A stretch of DNA of 64,000 nucleotides from Laspinema palackyanum D2a (lineage in GTDB: Bacteria > Cyanobacteriota > Cyanobacteriia > Cyanobacteriales > Laspinemataceae), in contig JAMXFF010000033.1 in NCBI GenBank assembly GCA_025370845.1, positions 1 through 64,000 on the forward strand, read 5' to 3'. The translations under genes and the position numbers were made by a program. The notes beneath the pieces were generated by a model, which saw only the letters and a program-made list of their open reading frames with translations, did not search any database and was not told the origin of the DNA. How positions within the stretch are numbered: position 1 is the stretch's first letter; every line of letters starts with the position of its first letter. Of this stretch, positions 22,986 through 56,484 are shown one piece after another.

Positions 22986-24113
22986 TTATTCAATTGTGAA
23001 GGTTGGAGTCCACCGATCATTTACTTTTTCAAATAAATATGGATTCGCCCACTTATCTAGAACATCATCAAACTCTTGTTGAGTCATTTGGTAGTATTCT
23101 AGATAATCTGGAATAAATTCTTCTGGATAATGCCCATCGTATAATTGTACAAGGTTAACTGCTTGTTCACGAGTCATAGCACCTCGCCGAATTTCAATAC
23201 CAGCATCTTGGGTAGCTCGTCCAAAACCAAACTTCAGATACATCATGTAAGTATGAAGGGCATATAATGCTTGATCATTTTGAGCAAAGTTTGTAAATGT
23301 TCCAGCATTGTTTTCTGGTGCCTCCTCTAAACCACAATGTTCTTTAGCGGTAATATAATTGCGGTACGGATCCCAGGATTCAAAGTAAGACCAATGAGTA
23401 ATATTTAGCTCTTTTCCTTTAAGTTCTTTATCAGTTGGAAATAAAAAAAAGTATAGTTCTGAATCAGGGAATCCTGAAGAACGTAAGACTTGTTCATAAC
23501 CTCCCTCTAAATAAATTCTTTTCATGTACTGAATATCATACATCGCACGGTTTTTAGATTCAGTTGAACCACCATATTCAACCTCTCCATCTTCCCCATA
23601 GAACAATAGGGGGATATTTAGATTGACCGCGAGACGAACCACAGCAGATTGGATAGCTATCAGCCAGCCAAAATAGGGGAAGCCTTTTTCAATAAATCCT
23701 TGGCGATTGAGTACAGCCATCGCGTGAGAATCAGGGCTGATTTGAATATGATTATATCCCCTCTCAATGTAGTTCCTAAGATTTGTATTTCCTAGTTCAA
23801 GAGATAAGGCAGGAGTGACTGTAACAGCTAAAGGATTCATTCCATACTTGTGTTTGAGTTGATAGGAAACATAAGAGCCATCTTTGCCTCCACTCACAGG
23901 CACAATACAGTCGAAACCACCTGTTTTAGATCGATAACGATTTAAGATATTTTGTAATTCTTCTTCTCGAACACTCCAATCCATTACCTGCTTTTCTTCC
24001 ATCCACTGACAGGCATTGCACCATCCTCTTTCGTCGAAAGAAATACGGGGACGGGTGGACATATTTAGACAGTTTTTACACCAAAAAACTTTTTTGTTTA
24101 AATTAGTTACCAT
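22986..24113 (-). CDS. N-acetyl sugar amidotransferase (WbpG/PseA/WbuX family)
   Basis: 375 residues. A Cys4 zinc-ribbon opens the protein (FWCKNCLNM then GWCNACQWM), and an ATP-pyrophosphatase P-loop, FDCIVPVSGGKDGSYVSYQL, follows at about residue 70. LLFYGEDGEVEYGG and RRGAMTREQAVNLVQLYDG are typical of this family. These ATP-dependent enzymes use ammonia from HisH/HisF to convert an N-acetyl into an acetamidino group. Possible substrates here are the legionaminic acid made by the neighbouring leg/ptm genes or the di-N-acetyl uronic acid from the wbp genes. Neighbourhood favours the first. Confidence 0.88.
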   Translation of the reverse strand: MVTNLNKKVFWCKNCLNMSTRPRISFDERGWCNACQWMEEKQVMDWSVREEELQNILNRYRSKTGGFDCIVPVSGGKDGSYVSYQLKHKYGMNPLAVTVTPALSLELGNTNLRNYIERGYNHIQISPDSHAMAVLNRQGFIEKGFPYFGWLIAIQSAVVRLAVNLNIPLLFYGEDGEVEYGGSTESKNRAMYDIQYMKRIYLEGGYEQVLRSSGFPDSELYFFLFPTDKELKGKELNITHWSYFESWDPYRNYITAKEHCGLEEAPENNAGTFTNFAQNDQALYALHTYMMYLKFGFGRATQDAGIEIRRGAMTREQAVNLVQLYDGHYPEEFIPDYLEYYQMTQQEFDDVLDKWANPYLFEKVNDRWTPTFTIE

Positions 24114-24157
24114 ATTTTTCCAACAGATATACTCGTATTAACAATTTGAGATAGTAG

Positions 24158-24985
24158 CTACCAAGCACTCAATCCACCATCAACAATAATATTTTGACCA
24201 GTGACGTAACTTGAGGCGTCAGAAGCAAGATATAACAATGCTCCTACCATTTCTTCAGATTGGCCCATGCGGTTCAAAGGAACACGATTTGAGTAGCGAC
24301 GTTTGAATTCTGCATTTTGTCCACTTTCTACACCTCCTGGAGTCAGTGTATTTACTCGAATCCCATATTTTGCCCAATAGGTTGATAAATATTGGGTTAA
24401 ACCAATCACACCCGCTTTAGATGCACTGTAGACTGCTGGTGTATTGATTGGGCGTTCGAGATAAAGTGACCCTTCATAAATGCGTTGGTCAGGGGCCCTA
24501 ATACCGTAAATAGAAGCTGTTTGAATTACGCTACCTCCTTTGCCTTGTAAAATCATTTGTTTGCCTACGGCTTGAGCCACTAAAAAAATACCATCTAGGT
24601 TAACTGACATTATTTTACGCCATTGGTCAAGACTATATTGTTCAAAGGGAGCAAAAAAGGCATCTAAATTGTCAGATTTTGCCGCAGCATTGTTATGGAG
24701 AATATTGATTTCTCCAAATTCCGCAATAATAGAAGCCACCATTTTATTGACTGACTCAGGTTGAGAGACATCACAACTTATGCCCACTGCTTCTCTGTTG
24801 TATTTTTGGCTAATGCTTCGGGCTAGTTCTTGGGCTTGAGTTTCTTGAATATCTACCACAGCCACCTTAGCACCTGACTCTGCTAAACCAGCACAGAATT
24901 GACGACCGAGAATGCCTGAACCACCAGTTACTACAGCAACTTTACCTGTTAAGTCAAATAAACTGCAAACGGAATCCTTATTCAT
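24158..24985 (-). CDS. ptmA: PtmA-like short-chain dehydrogenase
   Basis: Classical SDR, 275 residues: KVAVVTGGSGILGRQFC for NAD(P) binding, NILHNNAAAK, the catalytic serine in IQTASIYGI and Y-x3-K in YSASKAGVIG, then RVNTLTPGGVESGQ. In Campylobacter the homologous PtmA works with PtmF and is implicated in supplying glucosamine phosphate for GDP-linked legionaminic acid synthesis. It overlaps the CMP-sugar synthetase gene upstream by 4 bp (ATGA), as in ptm operons. Confidence 0.82.
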   Translation of the reverse strand: MNKDSVCSLFDLTGKVAVVTGGSGILGRQFCAGLAESGAKVAVVDIQETQAQELARSISQKYNREAVGISCDVSQPESVNKMVASIIAEFGEINILHNNAAAKSDNLDAFFAPFEQYSLDQWRKIMSVNLDGIFLVAQAVGKQMILQGKGGSVIQTASIYGIRAPDQRIYEGSLYLERPINTPAVYSASKAGVIGLTQYLSTYWAKYGIRVNTLTPGGVESGQNAEFKRRYSNRVPLNRMGQSEEMVGALLYLASDASSYVTGQNIIVDGGLSAW

Positions 24986-25683
24986 ACTCCCTGGCGTTTT
25001 TTAAGCATAAATTCTACCATTTCAAAATCTAACTCACTATCAATATCAATGGAACGGGATTCTGGCATTACAAATAACCGAGTATCTTGATTAAAAACGC
25101 TTGGAGCATTGAAGACTACATCTCGCTGCCAAACATAAATTGAAGCATTCATATCAAAACACTTTGGAGAATCTTGCCGCCGAACAATAGCTGTAATGGG
25201 AGGTTTTACTAACTGAACCACTCCATCATCTTTCAATTCGACAAGATTAAAATAAGGTGAACGTCTTGCAGGACTCCCTGTGATAATATTCCCTAAGTTT
25301 TGGGATTCTAATAGGTTAACTGCTCCTTGAATATCCTCCGGTAAACGGAGAGGGGAAGTTGCGTCAAGATCAACAACAATATCAAACCTTCGGTTAACAA
25401 TTCTTTCTGTTTCTTCTACACAATGACGAATGACTGGTAATTTAGGAGCTTCGTCGGTTGCTAACTCTGGGGGACGTTGAATCAAGACATTAACACCATA
25501 ACACTGAGCAACATCTAGAATTTCTGGAGAGTCACTACTCACTGCAATGACTTCAAAGAGTCGAGAAACTTGGGCTTGTTCTAAGGTGTAGGCAATCAGA
25601 GGTTTCCCAGCGATTTGACGAATATTTTTATTTTCGACTCCTTTTGAGCCTCCCCGAGCACATATCGTACAAATTCGTTTCAT
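24982..25683 (-). CDS. legF: CMP-legionaminic acid synthetase (LegF/PtmB, NeuA family)
   Basis: About 233 residues. The NeuA-type CTP-binding motif is ICARGGSKGVENKNIRQIAG, followed by PLIAYTLEQA, VISSDSPEI-like AVSSDSPEIL, RPPELATDEAP and VDLDATSPLR. It activates the free nonulosonic acid with CTP to CMP-Leg, the donor for sialyltransferase-like enzymes. I start at the ATG at 25683, whose ATGA overlaps the stop of the ptmF-like gene; an upstream in-frame start at 25695 is possible but less economical. Confidence 0.88.
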   Translation of the reverse strand: MKRICTICARGGSKGVENKNIRQIAGKPLIAYTLEQAQVSRLFEVIAVSSDSPEILDVAQCYGVNVLIQRPPELATDEAPKLPVIRHCVEETERIVNRRFDIVVDLDATSPLRLPEDIQGAVNLLESQNLGNIITGSPARRSPYFNLVELKDDGVVQLVKPPITAIVRRQDSPKCFDMNASIYVWQRDVVFNAPSVFNQDTRLFVMPESRSIDIDSELDFEMVEFMLKKRQGV

Positions 25684-26612
25684 CGTTGAATCCAAGTGTA
25701 GAAAATTGCAGTTTTTTCAGCGATTTCAATTGTTTGTAGAGTTTGAGTTGCTTCTTCCAGAGTACATAGTGTACTTCGATCTCTTGCTAATATAGCTTGA
25801 TGTTCTGCGATATAGGTTGAATCGGGGTTAATTGGAATCAAGCTTTGATGACCGTTAATAGTAATTAAGTTTTGAATTAAGTCAACTTCAATTGTCTGAT
25901 CTACAGTATTAACGATTATTTCTCGACGCGGTGTTCGATCTAAATAATTCATATGAAGTGAAACCAGAGCGGCTTTTTCTGTTTCCATGAGTAGAGAATA
26001 AACATCGTCACTCTTAATTTCCAAGTCACTAAACTTTCCTCCTCTTGCTGTTAAGCATTTCCAGTCACCAAATATCCATTTTACATAGTCTAATTCATGA
26101 CTTAAATCTCTTAGAACTCCACCCCCTTGTTCTGTAAAAGCAGAATAGCTTTGACGGTAATCAATAGTTGATCGCCAATCCGGTAAATAGGATCCAATGT
26201 AAATATTTACTGTTATAACTTGGGGTGAGGTTGCGATAATTGATTTTAATTGCTGCAATAAAGGGTGGAATCGTAAATTATAGGCTACGGCTGCTTGAGT
26301 AAATTTATGAGCAGGAATGTCGAGGTATTTGGAGAACAATGGTTTTTCGATTAAAACTAGGCCTTCAAATTGTGTTTCAGCTAAAACAGATAAGGAGTCG
26401 TAATGCTCACTGGTGCGGTTAGCTATAACTACATAATCAGGATTCCATCCATGTAAAGCTTTTTCTAAATTAGGATACCAAGGTGAATAATTCGTTAAAT
26501 AGCGAGTAACAATAGCAACTGAATGACCCAGTTCTTTGAGTAACCGAGTATGACGTTGCCCAATTGAGCCATATCCGACTACTAAAATTTTGAAGTTAGG
26601 GGATTTTTCCAC
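25680..26612 (-). CDS. ptmF: PtmF-like Gfo/Idh/MocA oxidoreductase
   Basis: 310 residues. The N-terminal Rossmann motif is ILVVGYGSIGQRHTRLLKEL, then ADYVVIANRT-like PDYVVIANRTSEHYDSL and VLIEKPLFS, in which EKP is the Gfo/Idh signature. The substrate domain includes GGVLRDLSHELDYVKWIFGD. Homologues in Campylobacter act with PtmA early in the GDP-sugar legionaminic acid pathway. The start is a GTG at 26612, 30 bp inside the ptmE-like gene; no closer ATG fits. Confidence 0.82.
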   Translation of the reverse strand: MEKSPNFKILVVGYGSIGQRHTRLLKELGHSVAIVTRYLTNYSPWYPNLEKALHGWNPDYVVIANRTSEHYDSLSVLAETQFEGLVLIEKPLFSKYLDIPAHKFTQAAVAYNLRFHPLLQQLKSIIATSPQVITVNIYIGSYLPDWRSTIDYRQSYSAFTEQGGGVLRDLSHELDYVKWIFGDWKCLTARGGKFSDLEIKSDDVYSLLMETEKAALVSLHMNYLDRTPRREIIVNTVDQTIEVDLIQNLITINGHQSLIPINPDSTYIAEHQAILARDRSTLCTLEEATQTLQTIEIAEKTAIFYTWIQR

Positions 26613-27667
26613 TCTTTTTGCGCTTTATCTAGTTCTTCAACTCTACCCACATCTAACCAAGGTTCGTGCATTGGATAGACAATAGTCCGATCACCTCGTT
26701 CCTGTAAACGACTGAACAAGGTGGGCATATCACAATACTGATCTTTCTCCAAAACGTTCAGTGCAGTAGGGCTAAGAACATAAATACCTGCATTGACATG
26801 GCTACGGACAATGGGTTTTTCTTCAAAACCAACAATATCAACCCCTTGGATATTGACAACTCCAAAGGGATTTTGCCACTCATGGAGACGGACAGCCATT
26901 GTTGCTGATGCTCCATGTAGATTGTGAAAATCTAGCATCTCTCCATAACGAACGTCAGTTAAAACATCACCATTGGAAACAAGCAAAGGAGTTTCTGGAG
27001 AAGATTGGAGAAGACTAATTGCTCCTGCTGTACCGAGAGGTTGTTCTTCCCGTAGGTAATCAATTTGGATTTGCCAAGAACTACCATCTCCGAAATAGTC
27101 TTCAATCATGTGACCTAAATAGTGAATTGCTAAGACAAAATTATGAAATCCTTCTTCTTTAGCACGTTCAATAATATGCTCTAAAATCGGTTTATCTCTG
27201 ACAGGTAACAGTGGTTTAGGGCAATTGACTGTATAAGGATGTAGACGAGTTCCCTTACCTCCTGCCATGATAATCATCAGATTAGGATGCTGACAAGGAG
27301 TGAGCAATTTGTTCAGAGAATGTAGTCCAATAACCTGTCTAGTTTCATCGACAATTGGCAGGGCATGAATTGCATTAGCCTGCATGAGTTGTAGCACTGT
27401 TTCACGACTCATTTGTGGTGGAACAACGAGGGGGGAGCGGTGAATGATAGAGTCAATGGAACTGTTGAGACTTAATCCTCGCAACAGACCTCGCCTAATA
27501 TCTCCGTCCGTAATTGTTCCTACGAAACTACCATTAATATCTACAACTAGAATAATTTGTAAGCCTGAATTTTCAAGATTACCAATTGCTGTTTGTATTG
27601 TGGTTTGTGAACTTAATAATACTTTACGCCAAGTGGGTTCACTGTATTGTTTAACTTGCTCAGACAC
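26582..27667 (-). CDS. ptmE: PtmE-like glucosamine-1-phosphate guanylyltransferase with CBS pair
   Basis: 361 residues in two parts. Residues 1-120 hold two CBS motifs (GTITDGDIRRGLL and ALPIVDETRQVIGLHSL). Residues 125-355 are a sugar-phosphate nucleotidyltransferase: LMIIMAGGKGTRLHPYT, CPKPLLPVRDKPILEHIIE, then VSNGDVLTDVRY with the metal-binding aspartate, and FEEKP. The CBS-plus-NTP-transferase fusion is the hallmark of PtmE, which makes GDP-GlcN(Ac) for legionaminic acid in Campylobacter. This is the best single indicator that the pathway here uses GDP-linked intermediates. It overlaps legH by 8 bp. Confidence 0.88.
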   Translation of the reverse strand: MSEQVKQYSEPTWRKVLLSSQTTIQTAIGNLENSGLQIILVVDINGSFVGTITDGDIRRGLLRGLSLNSSIDSIIHRSPLVVPPQMSRETVLQLMQANAIHALPIVDETRQVIGLHSLNKLLTPCQHPNLMIIMAGGKGTRLHPYTVNCPKPLLPVRDKPILEHIIERAKEEGFHNFVLAIHYLGHMIEDYFGDGSSWQIQIDYLREEQPLGTAGAISLLQSSPETPLLVSNGDVLTDVRYGEMLDFHNLHGASATMAVRLHEWQNPFGVVNIQGVDIVGFEEKPIVRSHVNAGIYVLSPTALNVLEKDQYCDMPTLFSRLQERGDRTIVYPMHEPWLDVGRVEELDKAQKEWKNPLTSKF

Positions 27668-28307
27668 TTTTATTTACCCCAATCTTAACCGCAGGATTTC
27701 CGGCGACAATCCAACCATCTTGAACGGGTTTTGTCACTACTGCACCCGCGCCAACAATTGCGTTTTCTCCAATGTGAATGTTGGGAATTACTACAGCACC
27801 TGCTCCTATAAAAGCAGATGAGGCAACTGTTACATGACCACAAAGGACAGAACCCGGAGCAATAAAGGCATGAGAACGAATAATGCAGTCATGATCAATA
27901 CTTGCTCGTGTATTAATGACAACATTTTCTTCTAGTGTTACTCCAGTCTGAATCACAACTCCAGCCATCACCTGACAACCCTCTTGTATGTCAATTGCAT
28001 TACTCACAATTGCGGATGGATGCTTGAATGACTTAAATCTAAAGCCCCGGGATTTCATCCCTCTAAATAGATTGCGTCTTCTAAATGTTTTAGGATTGGC
28101 ACCCAATCCATTCACTAAAAACAAGTGGGTACTTGACACATTATCTAAATACTCATCGCCTCCTAAAATAGGTACTCCCAATACGAGATGGGTAAGTGAA
28201 GCATGGGCATCAAGAATTCCTGCAATTGCGAACCCGTTAGCTAGTAGTGCATCCACAACAACTCGCCCGTGACCACCTGCACCTAAAACATAGACCGCTT
28301 CAGACAT
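27660..28307 (-). CDS. legH: LegH/PglD-like sugar N-acetyltransferase
   Basis: 215 residues. The N-terminal Rossmann-like domain has VYVLGAGGHGRVVVDALLAN, the PglD/NeuD motif. From residue 95 there are left-handed beta-helix hexapeptides (SNAIDIQEGCQVMAGVVIQ, INTRASIDHDCIIRSHAFIA, VTVASSAFIGAGAVV). The paired histidine of PglD-type enzymes is in SIDHDC. It acetylates the 4-amino group of GDP-2-acetamido-4-amino-2,4,6-trideoxyglucose. It overlaps the truncated neuB copy by 8 bp, exactly as the broken legH copy overlaps the intact neuB. Confidence 0.87.
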   Translation of the reverse strand: MSEAVYVLGAGGHGRVVVDALLANGFAIAGILDAHASLTHLVLGVPILGGDEYLDNVSSTHLFLVNGLGANPKTFRRRNLFRGMKSRGFRFKSFKHPSAIVSNAIDIQEGCQVMAGVVIQTGVTLEENVVINTRASIDHDCIIRSHAFIAPGSVLCGHVTVASSAFIGAGAVVIPNIHIGENAIVGAGAVVTKPVQDGWIVAGNPAVKIGVNKSV

Positions 28308-28893
28308 TTAAGGTTTCATCGAAAGAGTAATTTCTGGTGACTATTGTGCCAATAATTTGCCAATATTCAAAAGGAGAGACTCCTGTTCCTGGTCTTTTAC
28401 AAGTTAAGTTTTCTTCTGTAAATACTTCACCTACCTTGATCACCTGAGCTGCCACTAAACTCTTACGGGCAACATATCGATTTTTCCACTCCGAGGCTGT
28501 AGGTCGTTTAATCCCATCGCCTAATGCTTGCTCAATTTCGCGGATTTGTTGTACTAGCTGATGTAATTCTTCTGGTTCTAAGGATGCTTGATGGTCTGGT
28601 CCGGGGAGAGAGCGATCGCTCGTAAAGTGTTTTTCAATGATTCTAGCACCCCGTGCCACAGCCGCCAAGGAAATGTGAATACCTGGAGTGTGGTCCGAAT
28701 AACCTACAGAAAGACCAAAAGCTCTTACTAGGGTATCCATCGCCCGTAAATTCACCTCCGCAAAGGGGGCTGGGTATTCAGTCGTACAGTGGAGGTAGGG
28801 TGATGCGATCGCGCAACTGTTGTTGACATGCTTCCAGTGTTTGCCAAATGAGCCTGTACCCCATGTAATAATTATAGATTTATTATTGAACAT
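28300..28893 (-). pseudogene. chimeric, truncated neuB copy fused to a pseB/capD start
   Basis: A 197-codon open frame made of two unrelated parts. Codons 1-19 read MFNNKSIIIT then GTGSFGKH, the N-terminus of PseB/CapD-type UDP-GlcNAc 4,6-dehydratases with a Trp replacing a motif glycine. From about codon 33 (LHCTTEYPAPFAEVNLRAMD) it is the C-terminal 165 residues of NeuB, nearly identical to the intact gene at 30516-31589 over 28541-28800. The junction codons (WKHVNNSCAIASPY) are neuB sequence read out of frame: CAACAACAGTTGCGCGATCG encodes QQQLRDR in the neuB frame, and one extra base near ACCCTACCTCC shifts it. The NeuB catalytic barrel is largely missing, so no synthase activity is expected. 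Confidence 0.85.
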
Positions 28894-30079
28894 CAGTGTA
28901 TTCTAGTTTTAAAGGAACTCCTAACTCACACATTAACTTCCTAAAGCGAGTATTACTTGGGTCATATTCCATAATATCAGCCATATAGTGCTGCCACGTT
29001 TGCTGCCATTCTTTATCACTGGCTGTTGTAACATAATTGATTACTCTTTCAAATTCCTGATCATCAGCATGATTTGTCCAGAATGGACCATACTCAGGCA
29101 GTTTAGCTGGCCAACCAAACTTTGTTGATCTATTATAAACACTAAAGCTTCTAATGGAAAAACAAGCTGTTTTTTTGCCTCGTGCCAAGGCTTCATATCC
29201 AAGGGTACTATCGATAGAAACTATGAATTCTGAACTTTCAACTAATTGATAGCTACTAAATGGACTACAATTAGGATAATAACACCACCCTTTATCTCCT
29301 AAAATTTTTTTAAAATACTGGTACTCTGCTCCATCTATTACATGAGTGCGAGCAGCTATTTTCAGGATAAGATTGTGTTTAGCACAATAATTTTTTAAAA
29401 AAGGAAGAAGTTTAAATTCCGCAGCAAAACAATCATCCCAAGAAACAGATCGACCATCAGGCTCAACCCAGAATGGAGAGTTTTTTAAGCCCGGTTCAGG
29501 ATGATATTCAGAAATAAACAAAACTGATTTTTTATCACTTAGTATTTTACCCTTAGAGAAAGAGTTGTTTTTGAAGCCACCAATCACCATAACTTCTCCT
29601 TGAATATATTGTTGATATTTAAAACCGATTGGATAGCTAAAAGTAAGCATATAATCAACATGATAAGAGTTATTTTTTTGAAGGTATGCAAAAATATCTC
29701 CTAATTCCCCTCTCATCCCATTTTGTACAAATATTTTTTTTGCATTCGGATTCTTTAACTGAATCTTATAGAAAGATATTGAATTATCAATAAAAGTCAT
29801 AACTATCAATGGGTCTATTACTTTTATATATAGATCCATATAGTTGTGTTTGTTAATAATCTTTTTGTCACATATCAGTTTGAGGATTATATAAAAATTA
29901 ATGCTTTCCCCCCGTATATCAAGAATTTCAACGTGATTCTCCGCTAAATATTGAAGAAAATTTTCTGAACCAACCCGATCATAAATTAATACTTTAGCTG
30001 CATTAGGTTTTGTCCAAATTTTTTTAGCCTTCCAGCAGACTTTAAGGATTTTTATTAGTTTGGTGATTTTAATTAACAT
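28883..30079 (-). CDS. nonulosonate-locus surface carbohydrate protein, candidate glycosyltransferase
   Basis: 398 residues. I recognise the overall pattern of a group often annotated as 'surface carbohydrate biosynthesis protein' in legionaminic/pseudaminic acid loci (Leptospira LA_1612-like), but no biochemical function is established to my knowledge. Two Rossmann-like halves are evident: residues 30-180 (KVLIYDRVGSENFLQYLAEN, KKIFVQNGMRGELGDIFAYL) and 185-370 (SVLFISEYHPEPGLKNSPFW, LVESSEFIVSIDSTLGYEAL then ARGKKTACFS). The S-I-D-S-T-L-G-Y-E-A step resembles the donor site of polysialyltransferase/CDP-glycerol-transferase GT-B folds. Strongly AT-rich, lies between direct repeats, and overlaps the chimeric neuB by 11 bp. 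Confidence 0.6.
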   Translation of the reverse strand: MLIKITKLIKILKVCWKAKKIWTKPNAAKVLIYDRVGSENFLQYLAENHVEILDIRGESINFYIILKLICDKKIINKHNYMDLYIKVIDPLIVMTFIDNSISFYKIQLKNPNAKKIFVQNGMRGELGDIFAYLQKNNSYHVDYMLTFSYPIGFKYQQYIQGEVMVIGGFKNNSFSKGKILSDKKSVLFISEYHPEPGLKNSPFWVEPDGRSVSWDDCFAAEFKLLPFLKNYCAKHNLILKIAARTHVIDGAEYQYFKKILGDKGWCYYPNCSPFSSYQLVESSEFIVSIDSTLGYEALARGKKTACFSIRSFSVYNRSTKFGWPAKLPEYGPFWTNHADDQEFERVINYVTTASDKEWQQTWQHYMADIMEYDPSNTRFRKLMCELGVPLKLEYTDVQ

Positions 30080-30139
30080 TTTTTATCTACCCTCATTTAA
30101 ATAATGCTTAGATTAATTATTTCCGTGAGATTTAGGTAA

Positions 30140-30208
30140 AGTCGATGGAGGCGATAAAAACCCGCACCTCCCTGTTAGAACGGGACGTGCAAGTTTCCCG
30201 GCATGGAT
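30140..30208 (-). mobile_element. probable group II intron remnant
   Basis: On the minus strand the sequence reads GATCCATGCCGGGAAACTTG then CACGTCCCGTTCTAACAGGG and AGGTGCGGGTTTTTA. This closely resembles the conserved '...CCGGATGCCGGGAAACTGGCACGTCCGGTTCTG...' hairpin segment carried by many cyanobacterial group II introns. It begins exactly where homology of the broken legH copy stops. No reverse transcriptase remains. Identification is by remembered consensus only. Confidence 0.5.
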
Positions 30209-30523
30209 CGTACTGCTTACAATTGCCGCTGTAGGTTTAAATGACTTAAATGTAAATCCCCGTGTTTTCATCACAGTAAATATAATATTTCGGCACTTGA
30301 ATGTTGTAGGATTAGCACCCAAACCATTCACTAAAAATGTTTCGGCAATTTTTACACGATCTAAATATTCATCTCCCCCTAAAATGGGAACTCCTAACAC
30401 TTGGGCGAAAGGTTGAGCCTGAGCATCGAGAATACCTGTCCCTTGAAGGCAGCTGGCTAGTAGTGCATCTAAAACAACTCGCTAATGACCCCCTCCACCT
30501 AAAACATAGACGGATTCAGACAT
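30200..30523 (-). pseudogene. broken legH copy
   Basis: Degenerate duplicate of the intact legH at 27660-28307. The ATG at 30523 overlaps the neuB stop by 8 bp and is offset exactly 2,216 bp from the intact legH start. Translation reads MSESVYVLGGGGH, then TAG in place of the glycine codon of GHGRVV, then RVVLDALLAS. Homology resumes through LGVPILGGDEYLDRV and VNGLGANPTTF to KSFKPTAAIVSS, and stops abruptly at the intron-like remnant. The whole beta-helix half is absent. An internal ATG could allow a 95-residue product, but it would lack the active site. Confidence 0.88.
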
Positions 30524-31589
30524 CTAAGGTTTCATCAATAGGGTAAAGTTTAGCTGCTCTTTGCCCTAAAGTTTGCCAATAATCAAAGGGAGAAAGCCCT
30601 GTTCCTGGTCTTTTACAAGTTAAGTTTTCTGCTGTAAATGTCTCGTCTTTCCTAATAGCTCTTGCTGCCACCAAACTCTTACGAGCTATATCACGGTTTT
30701 TCCACTCAGAAGGAGTGGGGCGTTTAATCCCATCTCCTAGGGACTGTTCCACTTCACGGATTTGTTGTACTAGCTGATGTAATTCTTCTGGTTCTAAGGA
30801 TGCTTGATGATCGGGGCCTGGGAGGGTACGATCGCTCGTAAAGTGTTTTTCAATGATTCTAGCACCCCGTGCCACAGCAGCCAAGGAAATGTGAATACCT
30901 GGAGTGTGGTCAGAATAACCTACAGAAAGACCAAAAGCTGCTGCTAGAGTATCCATCGCCCGTAAATTCACTTCCGCAAAAGGGGCAGGGTATTCAGTAG
31001 TACAGTGGAGGAGGGTGACGCGCTCTCGCAACTCCTGCTGTCCTTGGTCTGAAGCAAAAGATCGCTCAAAGTCTCCTGGCTGGGGAATAGCTTTATCCGT
31101 GGTGAAACCAAAGGCTAAAACCCCTAACGCTGCCTCAACTTCAGCTAAGGTGCTCATTCCCGTTGAGAGAATGAGTACCTTAGCTGAACGGGCAATTTCT
31201 AGTAAAAAAGGAGCATTAGTAATCTCTCCAGAGGGGATTTTAATCGTGTTTAAACCAAAATTCTGCGTCAGGAGATGTAAGCTGGCAACATCAAAGGGGG
31301 TTGAGAGAAATTGAATTCCTCTGGACTGAGCATGACTTATTAAAACCTCGTGATCCGACGCGCTCAATTCCAGTTTGCGAACCATCTCTAACTGGCTTTC
31401 CGTTTGATGGGTGGTTTGAGTTTGATACTCGGCTTTGGGTGCATGACGACTCACGACCCGATCTGCTTGAAATGTTTGGAATTTAACGGCATCTGCCCCT
31501 GCATCAGCAGCGATATCAATCAGTCGTTGGGCGAGATGGCGATCGCCGTTGTGATTGACCCCTGCTTCAGCAATGATAAATGTGGACAT
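30516..31589 (-). CDS. legI: N,N'-diacetyllegionaminic acid synthase (NeuB/LegI)
   Basis: 357 residues. FIIAEAGVNHNGDRHLAQRL and DAVKFQTFQADRVV open the TIM barrel that condenses PEP with 2,4-diacetamido-2,4,6-trideoxymannose. KIPSGEITNAPFLLEIA and VILSTGMSTLAEVEAAL are substrate-binding strands, and YSDHTPGIHISLAAVARGA carries the metal-binding histidine. The C-terminal SAF (antifreeze-like) domain shows RKSLVAARAIRKDETFTAEN and CKRPGTGLSPFDYW. I start at the ATG at 31589 (MSTFIIAEAG), 1 bp after the legG stop. Its last two thirds are duplicated at 28300-28893. Confidence 0.9.
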   Translation of the reverse strand: MSTFIIAEAGVNHNGDRHLAQRLIDIAADAGADAVKFQTFQADRVVSRHAPKAEYQTQTTHQTESQLEMVRKLELSASDHEVLISHAQSRGIQFLSTPFDVASLHLLTQNFGLNTIKIPSGEITNAPFLLEIARSAKVLILSTGMSTLAEVEAALGVLAFGFTTDKAIPQPGDFERSFASDQGQQELRERVTLLHCTTEYPAPFAEVNLRAMDTLAAAFGLSVGYSDHTPGIHISLAAVARGARIIEKHFTSDRTLPGPDHQASLEPEELHQLVQQIREVEQSLGDGIKRPTPSEWKNRDIARKSLVAARAIRKDETFTAENLTCKRPGTGLSPFDYWQTLGQRAAKLYPIDETLDV

Positions 31590-31590
31590 T

Positions 31591-32760
31591 TTAGAAATTA
31601 TGCTCAATATCAAAAAAGGCTTTTTGGGTTTGCAGTGGAACAGATTTTAGTTTTTCCTTGATTTGCTGACTTACGTTTCCTATTCCATATAAAGATTTGA
31701 TTGAGGGTAGGATCACTTGAAACTCCTCAGATAGGGCTTGATGAATGCCCGCCACAATATCCGGGCTTCGTTCTGGCGTATCAATCACTGATTTGGCTTT
31801 GAGACGACCCTTTTGGCGATCGCCGATATTTACTGTTGGTTTTTTCAGGGGTGGCGCTTCTGTCAATCCACTAGAGGAATTCCCGATAATGACATTGGCT
31901 TCACCCATCAGGCTGAGATACCGTTGTTGACCAAGGGAAACAAATGCTTTCGCTCGATGTTGATTGTGCTTCACCCATTGATCGATCTGCTCAATCAAAA
32001 CGCGCCCCCCTGTATCAGCATTAGGATAGGTCAGGATTACAGTTGCCTCTGGAAAACGATCTAGAGCCACTAATAGCTCCTGCATTGCGATTGACGGGGA
32101 TTGTTTATCCAGGGTGACAGGATGATAAGTCACCAGGAAGAAGGGCGATCGCAGTTTAAGCCCTAGTGCTCGCTCTAAAGTAGGGCGATCGAGCCAGTCC
32201 ATATATTGAAGATGGTCTAGACCTGGAGAACCAAGGTTAAAAACGCGCTCAGGAGATTCTCCCAGTTGAATCACGCGCTGACGATAAGGCTCTGCGGCAA
32301 CAAAATGCCATTGGGCAAACTTAGTGATTGTATGGCGGATTTGCTCATCAAATGCCCCTTCTGTTGTTTCTCCCCCATGAATATGAGCGATAGGAATTCT
32401 AGCGACCATTGCCGCTTGAACTGCGGCGAGAATTTCAAAGCGATCGCCCAACACGACCAAAATATCAGGTTGAAGCCGAGCCAAAGCATCAGCAAAGCCT
32501 ATGACTCCCAAACCCATAGATTTCGCAATTCCCACAGGTGTGTCAGAAGACAAAAGCATTTCCACCTTGGCATCAATGCTGAAACCATCCGCTTCAATTT
32601 GCTGATAGGTCAAACCAAACTCAGGAGAAAGGTGCATCCCCGTAGCGATGATTTGTAACTGTAAGTCATTATCATCAGCTATTTCTTTAATCAACCAGTA
32701 CAGCAAACCATAGTCAGCCCGAGTTCCCGTGACAATACAGATTTTGCGCCGTGCTGTCAT
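31591..32760 (-). CDS. legG: hydrolysing NDP-sugar 2-epimerase (NeuC/LegG)
   Basis: 389 residues of the UDP-GlcNAc 2-epimerase superfamily. ICIVTGTRADYGLLYWLI is the NeuC/LegG N-terminal signature. HIHGGETTEGAFDEQIRHTI holds active-site histidine and glutamates, and IIGNSSSGLTEAPPLKKPTV binds the diphosphate. LegG inverts C2 and releases the nucleotide, giving 2,4-diacetamido-2,4,6-trideoxymannose for LegI. A GDP-linked substrate is inferred from the ptmE gene nearby. It overlaps legC by 4 bp. Confidence 0.88.
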   Translation of the reverse strand: MTARRKICIVTGTRADYGLLYWLIKEIADDNDLQLQIIATGMHLSPEFGLTYQQIEADGFSIDAKVEMLLSSDTPVGIAKSMGLGVIGFADALARLQPDILVVLGDRFEILAAVQAAMVARIPIAHIHGGETTEGAFDEQIRHTITKFAQWHFVAAEPYRQRVIQLGESPERVFNLGSPGLDHLQYMDWLDRPTLERALGLKLRSPFFLVTYHPVTLDKQSPSIAMQELLVALDRFPEATVILTYPNADTGGRVLIEQIDQWVKHNQHRAKAFVSLGQQRYLSLMGEANVIIGNSSSGLTEAPPLKKPTVNIGDRQKGRLKAKSVIDTPERSPDIVAGIHQALSEEFQVILPSIKSLYGIGNVSQQIKEKLKSVPLQTQKAFFDIEHNF

Positions 32761-33932
32761 ATGCCAGCCCCCGCAAGTTTTGCACTACTAGGCACATTAA
32801 TCAAACTCGCTTCCAATTGCTCTGCAACAGGCAAGGGAGCATGAGGGCAATCAGCATACATGGGCAGCTTATGCAGTAATTTCCATGTGGGACGACATTG
32901 ATAACCTGCATCATTAGCAGCGGTTAAGAGGCGATCGCGCATTTCAAAACTGGGTTGCCTTAACTCAAGAGTATTCAACCAATAATTACTCTGACTGTTT
33001 GCAGGCTCTACTACAAAATCTATTCCCTCCATCTCTCTATATATTTCCTGATATTGCTGGGCGAGTAATCGTTTTCGATGCAAAAAATCAGGCAATTGTT
33101 CCAGTTGAGCGCATCCCAAAGCAGCATTCAAATTAGGTAAACGATAATTCCAAGCAACGGCATCATGGAAAAATTCCCAACGGTGAGGGTGTTTTGCAGT
33201 TGTGGTCAAATGTTTAGCTTGTTGAGCCAATTCTGCATCATTGGTTAAAATCGCTCCCCCTCCACCTGTCGTAATCACCTTATTACCATTAAAACTTAAT
33301 GTTCCCAACCGTCCAAAAGTTCCCGTATGTTGCCCCTGATACCTGCTGCCTAAAGATTCCGCTGCATCTTCCACCACAGGCAAATGATAACGATTTGCTA
33401 CATCAAGCAGAGAGGTCATATCTACCGGATGACCATAGGTATGCATAGGAACAACAGCAGCGATCCGCCGTCCTGTAAATCGATTCGTTAATCCCTCTGA
33501 ACTAGACAGGCTAAAATCATTGAGATAGTCATTCAAAGCAAAAGGATCTATCCCCAAAGTTTCAAATTCACTATCAATAAAATGGGGAATTGCTCCACAG
33601 TGGGACACCGCATTTGCTGTAGCTACAAAAGATAAAGCCGGAATTAATACTTCATCTCCTGGTTTAACCCCTGCCAACAATAAAGCAATATGCAGGGCTG
33701 CCGTACCATTTACTAAGGCTACAGCATACTTCGCCCCTGTATATTCCGCCAACATAACTTCAAAGTGATCAACATATTTGCCGATGGATGAAACAAAGGT
33801 GGAATCCAGGCAATCTTTGACCCGTTCCCACTCATTGCCCATAAACTCAGGTTCGTGGAGTGGAACAAAAGGATTCGGCTGTCCCAAGACAGTTTGCAGG
33901 GCATGTAAAAAATTCTGTTCTATTTTGTCCAA
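32757..33932 (-). CDS. legC: LegC-like DegT/DnrJ/EryC1/StrS aminotransferase
   Basis: 391 residues. PLP-dependent sugar aminotransferase: FVSSIGKYVDHFE and ALVNGTAALHIALLLAGVKP at the N-terminus, VVEDAAESLGSRYQGQHTGT for cofactor stacking, and the Schiff-base lysine in LSFNGNKVITTGGGGA. It transaminates the 4-keto group left by LegB. The start is a TTG at 33932; no ATG precedes the family sequence. 13 bp separate it from legB upstream. Confidence 0.87.
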   Translation of the reverse strand: MDKIEQNFLHALQTVLGQPNPFVPLHEPEFMGNEWERVKDCLDSTFVSSIGKYVDHFEVMLAEYTGAKYAVALVNGTAALHIALLLAGVKPGDEVLIPALSFVATANAVSHCGAIPHFIDSEFETLGIDPFALNDYLNDFSLSSSEGLTNRFTGRRIAAVVPMHTYGHPVDMTSLLDVANRYHLPVVEDAAESLGSRYQGQHTGTFGRLGTLSFNGNKVITTGGGGAILTNDAELAQQAKHLTTTAKHPHRWEFFHDAVAWNYRLPNLNAALGCAQLEQLPDFLHRKRLLAQQYQEIYREMEGIDFVVEPANSQSNYWLNTLELRQPSFEMRDRLLTAANDAGYQCRPTWKLLHKLPMYADCPHAPLPVAEQLEASLINVPSSAKLAGAGI

Positions 33933-33945
33933 TCTTCAAATACCC

Positions 33946-34953
33946 CTAAATATTGTAGCGATCGCTCTTGTAGCCAGCCAAATTTGCTGGATTCATAAAC
34001 CAATCTGCCGTTTCTGCCAAACCGCGCTTAAATCCTTCACGTCCACTATATAAGGGTTCCCACCCCGCAATCTGTTTTGCCTTTGTATTATCTGCCCATA
34101 AACGATTCACTTCACTTTTTTCAGGACGTAAACGAATTTCATCCGTCTCTATATCAATCTGTACACCCATTGCCTCTGCAATAAGCTGTACCGTATCACC
34201 AATAGAAATTTCAAAATTACTGCCAATATTAATCACTTCTCCAATGGCATTTTCAGACTCGGCTATGGCAATAAATCCTCGAACTGTATCTTTGACATAA
34301 TTAAAATCTCTTGTGGGATGCAATGCACCTAGCTTAATTTTCCTTGTGCCATTGGCAATCTGAGTAATCACTGTAGGAATCACTGCCCGCGCTGACTGTC
34401 GCGGGCCGTAGGTATTAAAAGGCCGAATAATTGATACCGGAGTATTAAAAGACTGGTAAAAAGACATGGCAATCTGGTCAGCCCCTATCTTACTCGCCGA
34501 GTAAGGAGACTGACCTTGTAAGGGATGTTCTTCTGTAATGGGAACAAATTGAGCCGTGCCATAAACTTCACTCGTTGAAGTATGAACGACTTTCTCAACC
34601 CCTAGTTCTCTCGCTGCTTGAACTATATTTAGCGTTCCTTTTACGTTTGTATCCACATAAGTTGCGGGCGAATGATAAGAGTATGGAATAGCAATTAGTG
34701 CTGCTAGGTGTAATACGATATCACACCCTTTCATTGCTTCCTTAACCCCATAAGGGTCGCGAATATCGCCAGAAAATACTTCTAAACTTTCTATAACATC
34801 TTTTGTAGAATGGTCTAGCCAGCCCCAAGAATTGAATGAATTATATAAAACAAATGCTTTTACTGAATAACCCTGCCTCACCAATTCTTCTGTTAAGTGA
34901 GAGCCAATAAAACCATCTGCACCAGTAACTAATATTTTTTGCTTAGAACTCAA
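33946..34953 (-). CDS. legB: LegB-like NDP-HexNAc 4,6-dehydratase
   Basis: 335-residue extended SDR. ILVTGADGFIGSHLTEELVR begins the NAD domain; FVLYNSFNSWGWLDH is a loop characteristic of the LegB group. HTSTSEVYGTAQ and SPYSASKIGADQIA give the serine/threonine and Y-x3-K residues, and GALHPTRDFNYVKDTVRGFI follows. It removes water from GDP- (or UDP-) GlcNAc to give the 4-keto-6-deoxy sugar. The start is a TTG at 34953 with a GAGGA ribosome site 9-10 bp upstream. It is the first leg gene in the operon. Confidence 0.87.
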   Translation of the reverse strand: MSSKQKILVTGADGFIGSHLTEELVRQGYSVKAFVLYNSFNSWGWLDHSTKDVIESLEVFSGDIRDPYGVKEAMKGCDIVLHLAALIAIPYSYHSPATYVDTNVKGTLNIVQAARELGVEKVVHTSTSEVYGTAQFVPITEEHPLQGQSPYSASKIGADQIAMSFYQSFNTPVSIIRPFNTYGPRQSARAVIPTVITQIANGTRKIKLGALHPTRDFNYVKDTVRGFIAIAESENAIGEVINIGSNFEISIGDTVQLIAEAMGVQIDIETDEIRLRPEKSEVNRLWADNTKAKQIAGWEPLYSGREGFKRGLAETADWFMNPANLAGYKSDRYNI

Positions 34954-35011
34954 GTGATTTTCCTCAGAGCTGAATATTTATGAGTATCCAGAGTAATAAT
35001 AGATTGAGCCG

Positions 35012-51552: not shown

Positions 51553-52599
51553 TTAGGGACGATATAAACTAGCTTGAATCTCATCAAAAACTGCCCCTTC
51601 GTCAAAAAATTGTTGTTGTACGGCATTCCATCCGCCCAAATCTTCAATGGTAAAGGGGGTGTTAACCCGGGGAAAGCGATCGCCTTGATTGCTCTCCACT
51701 GTGGGTTCTACTGGGCGAAACCCATAGCGCGCAAAAATACTTTGGGCTTCTGGGGTAAATAAATATTGGACAAATGCTTCAGCCAGTTCCCGATTCCCAT
51801 GTTTATCCACATTTTCATCAATCACTGCCACAGCATTTTCTATTGCAATATTAACCTGTGGGACAAGGTAAGACAGGGGGCGATCGTTCAGTCCCGCTAA
51901 AATCATTTCATTTTCATAGTTCACCAACACATCTCCCTGGCGTTGCTCCACAAAAGCATCGGTTGCTTCCCGGGAGTCTTTAGACAAAACCACTGCATTC
52001 TCATAGACTTTCTGGGTAAAAGTTCGCGCCTCCTCTGGCGTTCCTCCAGTTTGGGTGACGGAACCCCATAGCGCGAGAAAACTCCACCGCGCACCCCCAG
52101 AGGTTTTCGGGTTAGCTAGAACAATCTGGACGTCATCTTTGGCTAAATCCGCCCAGGTTTGAATGCCTTTGGGATTATTGGGTCTAGTGGCAATTGTTGC
52201 CACAGAACGAGTGACGATGGAATTATTGGGTGCTTCTTGTTCCCAACCGGGTTCAATCAGTCCGTCTTTTTCCAGTTGTTTGATATCCAAGGCTAACGCT
52301 AGGGCGACGACATCAGCATCCAGTCCATGTAGGACGGTGCGGGTTTGGGTCCCGGAAGGGCCGTAACTTTGGCGAATCACCGCCTTGCGATCGTGTTGCT
52401 GATTCCAAGTTTCTAGGAATTGGGGAATGATTTCTTGATAGGCGGAAGGGGTCACCATATAGGAGACGAGGGTCAATTCCAGGGGACTACCATTGCCCAG
52501 ATTACCTGTGCAGGCAGCGATCGCCAGACTTAAACTAACTCCCGATAGGAAAACAACGATCCACCGGATTAAGAAATTTGGGGACAAAAAGCGACTCAT
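51553..52599 (-). CDS. sbpA: periplasmic sulfate-binding protein
   Basis: About 348 residues from the ATG at 52599 (MSRFLSPNF). It begins with a lipoprotein-type signal, VFLSGVSLSLAIAAC, whose cysteine follows a lipobox. SYMVTPSAYQEIIPQFLETW, QSYGPSGTQTRTVLHGLDAD and NPKTSGGARWSFLALWG are the sulfate-contact regions of the SbpA/ThiX family. The frame is open to 52677 but those residues precede the signal peptide and are hydrophobic noise. One of two paralogues in this operon. Confidence 0.9.
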   Translation of the reverse strand: MSRFLSPNFLIRWIVVFLSGVSLSLAIAACTGNLGNGSPLELTLVSYMVTPSAYQEIIPQFLETWNQQHDRKAVIRQSYGPSGTQTRTVLHGLDADVVALALALDIKQLEKDGLIEPGWEQEAPNNSIVTRSVATIATRPNNPKGIQTWADLAKDDVQIVLANPKTSGGARWSFLALWGSVTQTGGTPEEARTFTQKVYENAVVLSKDSREATDAFVEQRQGDVLVNYENEMILAGLNDRPLSYLVPQVNIAIENAVAVIDENVDKHGNRELAEAFVQYLFTPEAQSIFARYGFRPVEPTVESNQGDRFPRVNTPFTIEDLGGWNAVQQQFFDEGAVFDEIQASLYRP

Positions 52600-52724
52600 T
52601 TTCACCAGAACCCTAGGTATTTTAGCAATAATAATCAAGAAGTCTAATAGAGCCAAGGGCAGGTAGAGCGAGTCCACCTTATCCCCTGCTCAAAATCATC
52701 TTCCGTGAATTGATGTGCTGGCAA

Positions 52725-53156: not shown

Positions 53157-54317
53157 TTATCGCCTGACTTGACTCAAAATTGTGTCAAAGATAGCGCCAT
53201 CGTCAAAGAATTTAGTTTGCACTGCATCCCACCCCCCCAAGTCAGCAACGGTGAACAAGGTTCGGATCGGCGGAAATTGACTGCTAAATTCAGCAGCAAC
53301 GTTTGGCTCTACAGGCCGGAATCCAACTTTGGCAAATTCCCGTTGAGCAGTTGGGGTAAATAAATATTGGACGAAGGCTTCTGCGACTTCCCGGGTCCCA
53401 TGTTTATCCACATTGGCATCAACCACGGCAATGGGATTATCGATAGAAATATTCACTTCGGGAATCACATAGGGGAGTTCTTCGCCGTTTTGTTTCGCCA
53501 ATATCACTTCATTTTCATAGTTGATTAATACATCCCCTTGACCCTGTTTGAAAAAGACGTCACTGGATTCGCGAGCATCTCGGGGAAGGACGGGGACATT
53601 TTGGAAGACTTGACGAGTAAATTCGTTGGCAGTGGTATCATTGCCTCCATTTTGGGTGACGGCACCCCAAAGACCTAGGAAATTCCATCGGGCACCGCCA
53701 GAGGTTTTGGGGTTAGCGGTAATCACGCTGACATCATCTTTGGCTAAGTCTTGCCAGGTGTTAATGCCTTTGGGGTTACCGGGTCGGGTGACTAAAGCGG
53801 CAACGGATTTATGCACGATCGCATTGTTAGGCGCTTCTTGTTCCCACCCCGGTTGTATCAGTCCCGCTTTTTCAATTTGTTGGGTATCTAATGCCAAAGC
53901 TAAGGCAACGATATCCGCTTCTAATCCATCAATAACGGCTCGGGTTTGGGAACCGGACCCCCCATAACTTTGGGTAAAGGTGACTTCTTGGTTATGTTCT
54001 TCTTTCCACTGCTGTGCAAATTGCGGAATGATTTGCTCATACGCGGCACGAGTGACGGCATAAGACACCAGAGTGAGTTGGACGTTATCTCCACCTCCTG
54101 CTCCTGTGGGACTTCCACAAGCTGCGATCGCCGCGCTCAAGCTCAGTCCCACCAGAAATAATGAAACGGATTTTTGAATTTGTAGATACTTCCCTCGACC
54201 CCTGAACCATTCTTTCCACCAAGGGACGAGGGTCCCTAGCCTAAACCCCCCACTCCCTAATCTGCGGTTTTGAGCAGCGGAGTTTGTTCCCTCTGCGATG
54301 CCTTGCCATTGACCCAT
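53157..54317 (-). CDS. second periplasmic sulfate-binding protein
   Basis: 386 residues. The signal LFLVGLSLSAAIAACGSPTG lies unusually deep, after about 48 residues; the start is nonetheless supported by GAGGTAGG just before the ATG at 54317. SYAVTRAAYEQIIPQFAQQW, QSYGGSGSQTRAVIDGLEAD and NPKTSGGARWNFLGLWGAVT match the paralogue at 51553-52599 throughout. Probably first gene of the operon. Different affinity or induction for the two binding proteins is inference. Confidence 0.88.
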   Translation of the reverse strand: MGQWQGIAEGTNSAAQNRRLGSGGFRLGTLVPWWKEWFRGRGKYLQIQKSVSLFLVGLSLSAAIAACGSPTGAGGGDNVQLTLVSYAVTRAAYEQIIPQFAQQWKEEHNQEVTFTQSYGGSGSQTRAVIDGLEADIVALALALDTQQIEKAGLIQPGWEQEAPNNAIVHKSVAALVTRPGNPKGINTWQDLAKDDVSVITANPKTSGGARWNFLGLWGAVTQNGGNDTTANEFTRQVFQNVPVLPRDARESSDVFFKQGQGDVLINYENEVILAKQNGEELPYVIPEVNISIDNPIAVVDANVDKHGTREVAEAFVQYLFTPTAQREFAKVGFRPVEPNVAAEFSSQFPPIRTLFTVADLGGWDAVQTKFFDDGAIFDTILSQVRR

Positions 54318-55452: not shown

Positions 55453-56484
55453 ATGAGATTATCTTGGCGCTGGTTTTTACTTTCTAGCTTAATAAGTTTA
55501 ACCTTCGCGATCGCCCTCCAGGATCGGTCGCAAGTGGCCCATTCGCAAATCCAGCCTCCCTCAAGCGAGAGCCTGAACCCGCAATCCGGACCCCTTTTTA
55601 TTTTAGATAAAACCCTGGAAGGACATACCAGTTGGGTAGGGTCCCTAAAATTTAGTCCCGATGGCAGCATCCTAGCCAGTGGCAGTCGAGATAATACAAT
55701 CAATCTCTGGAATTGGACCAGTGGGGAATTGATTCGCACCCTGCTGGGACATTCAGATGATGTGAATTCCCTTGCGTTTAGTCCGGATGGACAAGGTTTA
55801 GCCAGTGCCAGTACGGACCTCACCGTCAAGTTGTGGGATGTGAATCAGGGCATTTTAACTGGGACGCGATTGGGGCATACCTTTGCGGTTCGTGGGGTCA
55901 CCTTCACCCCCGATGGGCAAACCCTCGCCTCTGCCAGTGCCGATCGCAGCATTATCCTGTGGGATGTCACCACGGAACGAGAACGGCGGACCCTCAACTG
56001 GCATTCCAGCTTTGTCTGGTCAGTCGCCGTCAGTCCCGATGGCAATACCTTGGTGAGTGGGGGCTACGATAACACCATTCGCTTTTGGAGAATGCCCAAG
56101 GGGAAAAGGTGGCGCTCCATTGAAGGGCATTCTAGCCCGATTACCGCGATCGCCTTTAGTCCCGATGGACAAACCATCGCCAGTGCGAGTGCCGATCACA
56201 CCATCAAGTTATGGGATGTCAACACCGGATCTTTGAAAAGCACCTTAACGGGTCATGCGGATTGGGTCCTAGCGGTGGCATTTAGTCCCGATGGTCAACT
56301 CCTTGCGAGTGGGGGTGCCGATCGCACCCTGCGCCTGTGGAATGTGGCCAATGGTTCTCTGCGAACCCTCTTTAACAATCATCAAGGGAGAGTCCTCTCC
56401 GTTGCCTTTAGTCCCGATGGACAGGCCCTTGCCAGTGCCAGTGCCGACCAAACCATTAAAATTTGGAGAGCTACGACTCCATAA
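55453..56484 (+). CDS. secreted WD40 beta-propeller protein
   Basis: About 343 residues from the ATG at 55453 (MRLSWRWFLLSSL), giving an N-terminal signal peptide that ends near residue 30 (AHSQ). The open frame begins at 55381 but the extra 24 residues are lysine-rich and precede the signal. Seven WD40 repeats follow, each with a GH...SPDG...LASASAD..(I/V)KLWD pattern, for example LEGHTSWVGSLKFSPDGSIL and LTGHADWVLAVAFSPDGQLL. Seven repeats close one propeller. Interaction scaffold; partner unknown. Highly regular repeats of this kind are typical of cyanobacteria. Confidence 0.88.
   Translation: MRLSWRWFLLSSLISLTFAIALQDRSQVAHSQIQPPSSESLNPQSGPLFILDKTLEGHTSWVGSLKFSPDGSILASGSRDNTINLWNWTSGELIRTLLGHSDDVNSLAFSPDGQGLASASTDLTVKLWDVNQGILTGTRLGHTFAVRGVTFTPDGQTLASASADRSIILWDVTTERERRTLNWHSSFVWSVAVSPDGNTLVSGGYDNTIRFWRMPKGKRWRSIEGHSSPITAIAFSPDGQTIASASADHTIKLWDVNTGSLKSTLTGHADWVLAVAFSPDGQLLASGGADRTLRLWNVANGSLRTLFNNHQGRVLSVAFSPDGQALASASADQTIKIWRATTP

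Follow-up and report, generated by a model that had tools for sequence, protein, structure and literature searches.

A likely scar of additive recombination at a doubled neuB/legH junction in a nonulosonic acid gene cluster of Laspinema palackyanum D2a

The stretch of DNA analysed here (the window), the first 64,000 nucleotides of contig JAMXFF010000033.1 from the cyanobacterium Laspinema palackyanum D2a (GCA_025370845.1), encodes on its minus strand a nonulosonic acid (NulO) cluster in which the junction between neuB and legH is present twice. Along that strand, legB, legC, neuC and an intact neuB (copy 1, 30516..31613; a neuB/legI-type synthase, NeuB_NnaB 493.5 bits) are followed by a broken legH (copy 1, 30205..30523) that retains only its 5' half and whose translation meets an internal stop, by the truncated 3' end of a group II intron (30127..30204), and by an intact 398-aa open reading frame (ORF) of the LA_1612/TIGR04441 family (28883..30079), a putative O-antigen biosynthesis protein. 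There follow the first 21 codons of a pseB gene (28831..28893) fused to a truncated neuB (copy 2, 28300..28830), which keeps the last 97 of the 241 positions of the Pfam NeuB domain (145-241) together with the SAF domain and is frameshifted close to the truncation. The next gene is an intact legH encoding a NeuD-family acetyltransferase (copy 2, 27660..28307; NeuD_NnaD 211.6 bits). Downstream of this legH lie a CBS-domain nucleotidyltransferase, an oxidoreductase, a cytidylyltransferase-like gene, an ORF that by its sequence looks short-chain dehydrogenase-like, and a WbuX amidotransferase. Because the LegB, LegC, NeuC, NeuB and NeuD families all score over their NCBIfam cut-offs, the cluster indicates a pathway of the legionaminic-acid type, with a predicted product to match, and since neuB and legH are each still present in one intact copy, that pathway probably works.

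The two neuB-legH units are direct copies, with legH starts at 28307 and 30523, 2,216 bp apart, and both neuB ORFs terminate at the same offset (30516 and 28300). Compared with itself by blastn, the region aligns at 80.4% identity over 820 bp with an E-value printed as 0.0, so the copies are not a chance resemblance. A preliminary description of this DNA had reported this pair of direct copies, the upstream unit with intact neuB and broken legH and the downstream unit with intact legH and truncated neuB, and both observations are confirmed, the first by alignment and self-blastn and the second by family scores and domains. Its fixed offset of 2,216 bp holds over most of the repeat but a 3-bp difference in length reduces it to 2,213 towards the distal end of the broken legH. 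Its 'nearly identical' 260-bp blocks (28541..28800 in copy 2 and 30757..31016 within the intact neuB of copy 1) are homologous, but the phrase is too strong: they are 92.3% identical, with 20 mismatches in 260 positions and a longest exact run of 53 bp, and the gene alignment and the ungapped mismatch list agree on this figure. Identity between the copies then breaks sharply at 28541|28540, from 91.8% (259/282 columns) to 73.1% (405/554), that is, from 23 mismatches in 282 columns to 149 in 554; over the 836 aligned columns this change point was equalled in 0 of 2000 shuffles. The codons that differ also change in character, with 12 of 15 synonymous in the block and 19 of 44 in the remaining shared neuB. 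Copies this different are unlikely to be an artefact of assembly collapse.

The gene between the copies looks foreign, and two features of the DNA around it, the pseB start and the intron end, go beyond the preliminary description. The 398-aa ORF matches TIGR04441 at 434.6 bits over residues 15-385, against a curated cut-off of 150, and its GC content is 32.3%, against a median of 43.9% for windows of equal size, of which 5.1% reach so low a value. Among 388 genomes searched in the class, only the window's own exceeds the cut-off, and five others give weak matches under it (17.5-22.4 bits); a search of the family for close relatives of the gene gave 1 of 14 genomes, again the window's own. A wider search for close relatives brought up 17 genome-contig and 2 viral-contig stretches matching a pattern, none of them a relative, and plasmids and phages gave no match; 47 of the 50 genomes behind a set of 50 compared loci gave none either (0/47), in a search where 14 controls were also matchless, so that absence is not shown there. 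A Pfam search up to E 10 gives no match for the protein, its best hit in a PDB sequence search has an E-value of 0.81, and a single-sequence structure model reached a pLDDT of 33.7 and is unusable. From its family name and context, the gene probably encodes a surface-sugar transferase.

The pseB start, which overlaps the end of this ORF, matches PseB TIGR03589 at positions 1-21 (E 6.1e-5, 22.1 bits) and joins the truncated neuB directly at about 28830, a putative second junction drawn from one genome; the genome has 8 PseB-like matches, none of them over the cut-off. Behind the broken legH, the intron stretch scores 16.7 bits against Rfam RF00029, below the gathering threshold of 40, and is not among the 5 RF00029 matches in its own genome. 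We call it a truncated group II intron remnant because, when compared with 30 intron loci of the family, it shares 85.9% identity across 78 bp (E 3e-20) with a locus (L110) of the same-genus genome G006 that is itself an RF00029 match at 60.3 bits. As DNA, 30080-30230 matched only itself in the genome. RF00029 3' ends (E <= 0.001) occur in 12 of the 14 genomes of the family, with five in the window's own genome, of which one falls short of the gathering score. A promoter and terminator scan of 27500-32000 gave counts like those of shuffled sequence (10 vs a mean of 10.4, and 3 vs 3.6).

On either side of the doubled junction, the cluster resembles different cyanobacteria. The comparison covered larger regions from G004 (same genus as the window genome), Planktothricoides sp. 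SR001 (G010; same family), Spirulina subsalsa FACHB-351 (G081), the filamentous cyanobacterium ESFC-1 (G129), G069, G052 and G222, with G053 and G093 left out; module proteins were compared with loci L045, L047, L048 and L049 out of 50 loci, L046-L048 being from the same genomes as Planktothricoides, Spirulina and ESFC-1, and the remaining loci served only as tblastn or blastn subjects. This neuB was found at E <= 1e-20 in 2 of 8 genomes of the genus (the window's own and G004) and at E <= 1e-60 in 10 of 291 genomes of the order, the window's own included. A search of viral contigs gave one neuB relative, at 33% identity, which was not used.

In the front module, the proteins of legB (33946..34953; an NAD-dependent 4,6-dehydratase, NCBIfam LegB 546.7 bits), legC (32757..33932; an aminotransferase, NCBIfam LegC family 538.5 bits) and neuC (31591..32760; a neuC/legG-type UDP-GlcNAc 2-epimerase, NeuC_NnaA 483 bits) are 87-93% identical to those of G004, Planktothricoides and L045 (93.1, 93.4 and 91.6% for legB; 90.5, 89.7 and 87.1% for legC; 90.5% to each for neuC). 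The L045 contig, labelled as a Thiomargarita metagenome-assembled genome, has a NulO front module with 85-92% protein identity to the window's, through misbinning or transfer. The rear module is, by protein identity, of the Spirulina type: its first gene, the CBS-domain nucleotidyltransferase (26582..27667; Pfam NTP_transferase and CBS), which we take to be of the ptmE type, is 86% identical to its Spirulina counterpart and 44-46% to those of G004, Planktothricoides, ESFC-1, G069 and L045. The oxidoreductase behind it (25680..26612; Pfam GFO_IDH_MocA) is 76% identical to that of Spirulina and 60% to that of G004, with no match in Planktothricoides, ESFC-1 or G069 at E 1e-8, and the CMP-sugar cytidylyltransferase-like gene (24982..25695; best NCBIfam match PseF at 130.5 bits, below the cut-off of 205.7) shows 84 and 71% to the same two genomes. 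Planktothricoides thus shares the window's front module (85-93% at the protein level) and Spirulina the first three genes behind legH (76-86%); unlike the window, neither has a second copy, a TIGR04441 gene or remnants in the stretches read.

Trees of four stretches, with 7 or 8 sequences each and 200 bootstraps for the grouping of the copies, place the two copies apart over most of their length; G052 and G222, whose neuB identity is about 60%, were excluded from them and L045 was included. In the 5' part of neuB, copy 1 groups with G004, Planktothricoides and L045 (98/99), and in the block (about 280 bp) the two window copies fall together (71/75, and 70% of bootstraps). In the 3' part of neuB, copy 2 goes with Planktothricoides, G004, L045 and ESFC-1 and copy 1 with Spirulina and G069 (93/95, an open fork), and in the 5' half of legH copy 1 joins Spirulina (93/100) while copy 2 stands apart; in both stretches the copies are united in 0 of 200 bootstraps. 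The two copies are accordingly not each other's closest relatives along their whole length, as a tandem duplication would have made them.

A change of ancestry is also visible within copy 1. Compared with Planktothricoides, it has a change point at 30759, where mismatches rise from 12.9 to 24.6% (0/1000 shuffles) and identity falls from 88.7 to 75.5%; across this point copy 2 and G004 hardly change (87.9 to 88.4% and 95.7 to 95.0%), L045 rises from 89.4 to 92.1% and Spirulina falls slightly, from 80.9 to 79.3%. Together with the break at 28541|28540 between the copies, this locates an ancestry switch within the homologous anchor. At sites that separate Spirulina from Planktothricoides, G004 and L045, copy 1 has the Planktothricoides state at 27, 24 and 28 of 30 in three consecutive sets that run from 31798 to 31041; the Spirulina state is common in it only further on, at 25 of 53 sites in 30588-30201. 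By these states, the 3' end of the copy 1 neuB (about 30516-30756) is a divergent allele that differs from every relative compared, and not a Spirulina one, because 19 of the 30 discriminating sites in 30813-30595 are still Planktothricoides-type.

These observations bear directly on the simplest account of the locus, given in the preliminary description, in which a direct duplication was followed by reciprocal decay. The trees and change points disfavour it, and the fact that none of 200 bootstraps unites the copies, whether in the neuB 3' end or in legH, comes near the result that the description itself had named as refuting, namely unrelated histories of the two copies among relatives. An elaborated version, in which neuB-legH was duplicated in tandem within the lineage and the transferase gene then inserted, after which the copies decayed in complementary parts and one diverged fast or through conversion, would fit the nearly constant offset, the complementary losses, the predominance of Planktothricoides-type states in 30813-30595 and the grouping of the block copies in most bootstraps. 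We nevertheless judge it unlikely, given the failure of the copies to group outside the block, the strongly supported placement of the copy 1 legH with Spirulina and the sharpness of the identity break.

We consider it likely that the region is instead a scar left where additive recombination, at a boundary between modules of the NulO cluster, brought in a foreign gene. In this model, the neuB/legH junction would be where the front module (legB-legC-neuC-neuB) gives way to a rear module that varies, and arriving DNA with a different neuB 3' end and a legH of its own would have crossed over with the neuB already present, within or close to the ~280-bp block. Because the exchange would have been additive, either through a single crossover or through one crossover paired with an illegitimate join at the opposite end, both neuB-legH junctions would have been retained; the added DNA would also have carried the TIGR04441 gene and the pseB start. 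Later deletions, one of them ending in the group II intron remnant, may then have trimmed the redundant legH and neuB. We infer this order of events, and the additive crossover itself, from the arrangement that survives. Both a circular donor, integrating by single crossover, and a linear donor joined illegitimately where pseB meets neuB would fit. A reciprocal crossover would suit a Spirulina-type start of copy 2, where 5 of the first 6 discriminating sites have the Spirulina state, a weak hint since the sites are few and close to the join.

Several results weigh against this reading. The two types are poorly separated at the protein level in neuB (85.0% to Spirulina vs 85.2% to Planktothricoides) and in neuC (87.3% vs 90.5%), and the block unites the copies at 71/75 only, with ESFC-1 nearly as near to copy 1 there (90.4%) as the copies are to each other (91.8%). 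ESFC-1 and G069 also fall across the 30759 boundary when compared with Planktothricoides, from 87.9 to 79.0% and from 77.0 to 68.9%, so lower conservation accounts for part of the fall in copy 1. The 3' end of neuB in copy 1 also lacks a Spirulina character: besides its 19 Planktothricoides-type sites, the stretch 30813-30595 has 5 Spirulina-type sites and 6 with other states. A divergent donor would be compatible with this end of the gene, and so would fast evolution, with 25 of the 44 differing codons in the shared neuB outside the block nonsynonymous. Spirulina is barely closer to the copy 1 legH (85.3%) than G004 is (84.0%), with Planktothricoides at 81.8%, and the copy 2 legH is near to no relative, at 72.8-78.9% to G004, Planktothricoides, L045 and Spirulina over 27987-28299. 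Change points against Planktothricoides occur in G004 at 31037 (0/1000 shuffles), in copy 2 at 28368 (8/1000) and in L045 at 31315 (33/1000), with 101/1000 for Spirulina, and mosaicism of neuB is therefore general. Neither a pre-insertion strain nor a donor was found among the genomes searched.

The same junction is disturbed in some relatives. In Planktothricoides, L045, Spirulina and G069, and by tblastn coordinates in the more distant G222, neuB is followed directly by legH, and in ESFC-1 a formyltransferase occupies the position of legH. In G004, neuB is followed by a stub of legH, some 340 bp that include a HicB-like antitoxin fragment (L016 11509-11850, Pfam E 1.6e-9), another neuB/legH junction, of 41 bp and 80.5% identical to the first one, and finally an intact legH. 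Over the 35 columns of its neuB part, this second junction matches copy 2 at 91.4% and Planktothricoides at 85.7%, too short a stretch to decide between them. G052 has transposase-like ORFs between neuB and legH (L035 7920-8644; InsA zinc ribbon 24.5 bits, cut-off 26.1). Counting the window, 3 of 9 loci have extra DNA between the two genes and 1 lacks legH. These insertions in G004 and G052, together with the group II intron end in the window, could be taken to mean that the gap between neuB and legH simply tolerates DNA, and that the window has received successive unrelated insertions with no link to a swap of the rear module. That account leaves unexplained why the insert is followed by another neuB 3' end and legH whose ancestry differs, and we regard it as quite unlikely.

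The preliminary description had offered a choice between an on/off cassette for a glycan modification and an insertion scar. The scar fares well, although a single event seems too few and more than one appears to be needed. An on/off cassette would have recombination between the block arms remove 2,216 bp with the transferase-like gene and so alter the surface glycan, with both forms present in populations. The geometry allows such an excision, the arms being directly oriented at 92.3% identity and both neuB ORFs ending at the matching offset, and there is a precedent in Legionella pneumophila, where lag-1 lies in the lipopolysaccharide locus beside a partial duplication of ORF 2, loop-out is assumed, and lag-1 deletion in vitro is quoted from unpublished results at 1e-6 to 1e-7 (PMC3766260). 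The likeness extends to a legionaminic-acid locus with a modifying gene beside a partial duplicate of its neighbour and a loop-out that is thought possible; unlike that system, for which loss is reported, the window has arms only about 92% identical and copies apparently of different origin, with no deletion observed. Excision between direct repeats is moreover one-way, so that a loss would be irreversible, and the longest exact run shared by the arms is 53 bp; had the arms once been identical, they would have drifted by 8% without the loss of either. Between them lie only the TIGR04441 protein and remnants, with no recombinase-like ORF, a search confined to that interval and not extended to the rest of the window or genome. 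No inverted pair of at least 60 nt occurs in the window, and one 25-nt, 72% inverted pair in 24000-35000 and one 49-bp imperfect palindrome (31140-31188) both lie outside the arms. On/off switching therefore has no positive support here; we hold it to be very unlikely, and it should not be cited without sequencing reads.

The additive recombination that we favor has published parallels. Homology-facilitated illegitimate recombination and additive single-crossover integration (PMC3240628; PMC5361080) and, more specifically, the displacement model for the immunity arrays of Vibrio type VI secretion systems, in which a homologous anchor adds a module and the old genes stay alongside (PMC5361080), share with the window one homologous anchor, non-homologous new genes added beside it and displaced genes surviving as remnants. 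The window differs from the cases of homology-facilitated illegitimate recombination described there in being a sugar biosynthesis cluster, in a putative pseB-neuB illegitimate join drawn from one genome and in being equally well fitted by a circular donor. For the putatively captured gene, the nearest counterpart is Leptospira LA_1612, tabulated among sialic-acid cluster genes between a nucleotidyltransferase and neuB2 and called hypothetical in that table (PMC4758666). Like it, the window ORF, far over the TIGR04441 cut-off, sits within a NulO cluster; its neighbours are the pseB start and legH, which is not the arrangement tabulated for Leptospira.

More tentatively, and as a possibility we think rather doubtful at present, the neuB/legH junction may be a recurrent exchange seam of cyanobacterial NulO clusters, at which rear modules, taken to determine how the sugar is finally decorated, are swapped or added by crossover in the 3' part of neuB, and the window an additive intermediate with a NulO-type transferase captured from outside the cyanobacteria. 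If so, recombination between the arms could occasionally lose the transferase gene and produce strain-level glycan variation, and a recurrent seam would predict where glycans vary between cyanobacterial strains and explain broken neuB and legH fragments in annotations. Any novelty of such a seam is claimed only within the literature searched. The window in any case illustrates how a sugar-acid cluster changes, and because one junction can still be read in both its older and its newer form, the place of the exchange can be located.

Other repeats in the window lie away from the cluster. Two adjacent genes for sulfate ABC transporter substrate-binding proteins (51553-52677 and 53157-54317), with about 74% DNA identity at a 1601-bp offset, are ordinary tandem paralogues. 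Short 72-nt repeats, each in two copies, are found at 174-317 and 935-1090 (96% and 90% identity), and an ORF at 55648-56466 contains seven 63-nt repeats at a spacing of 126 bp, presumably of the kind expected for WD40 repeats.

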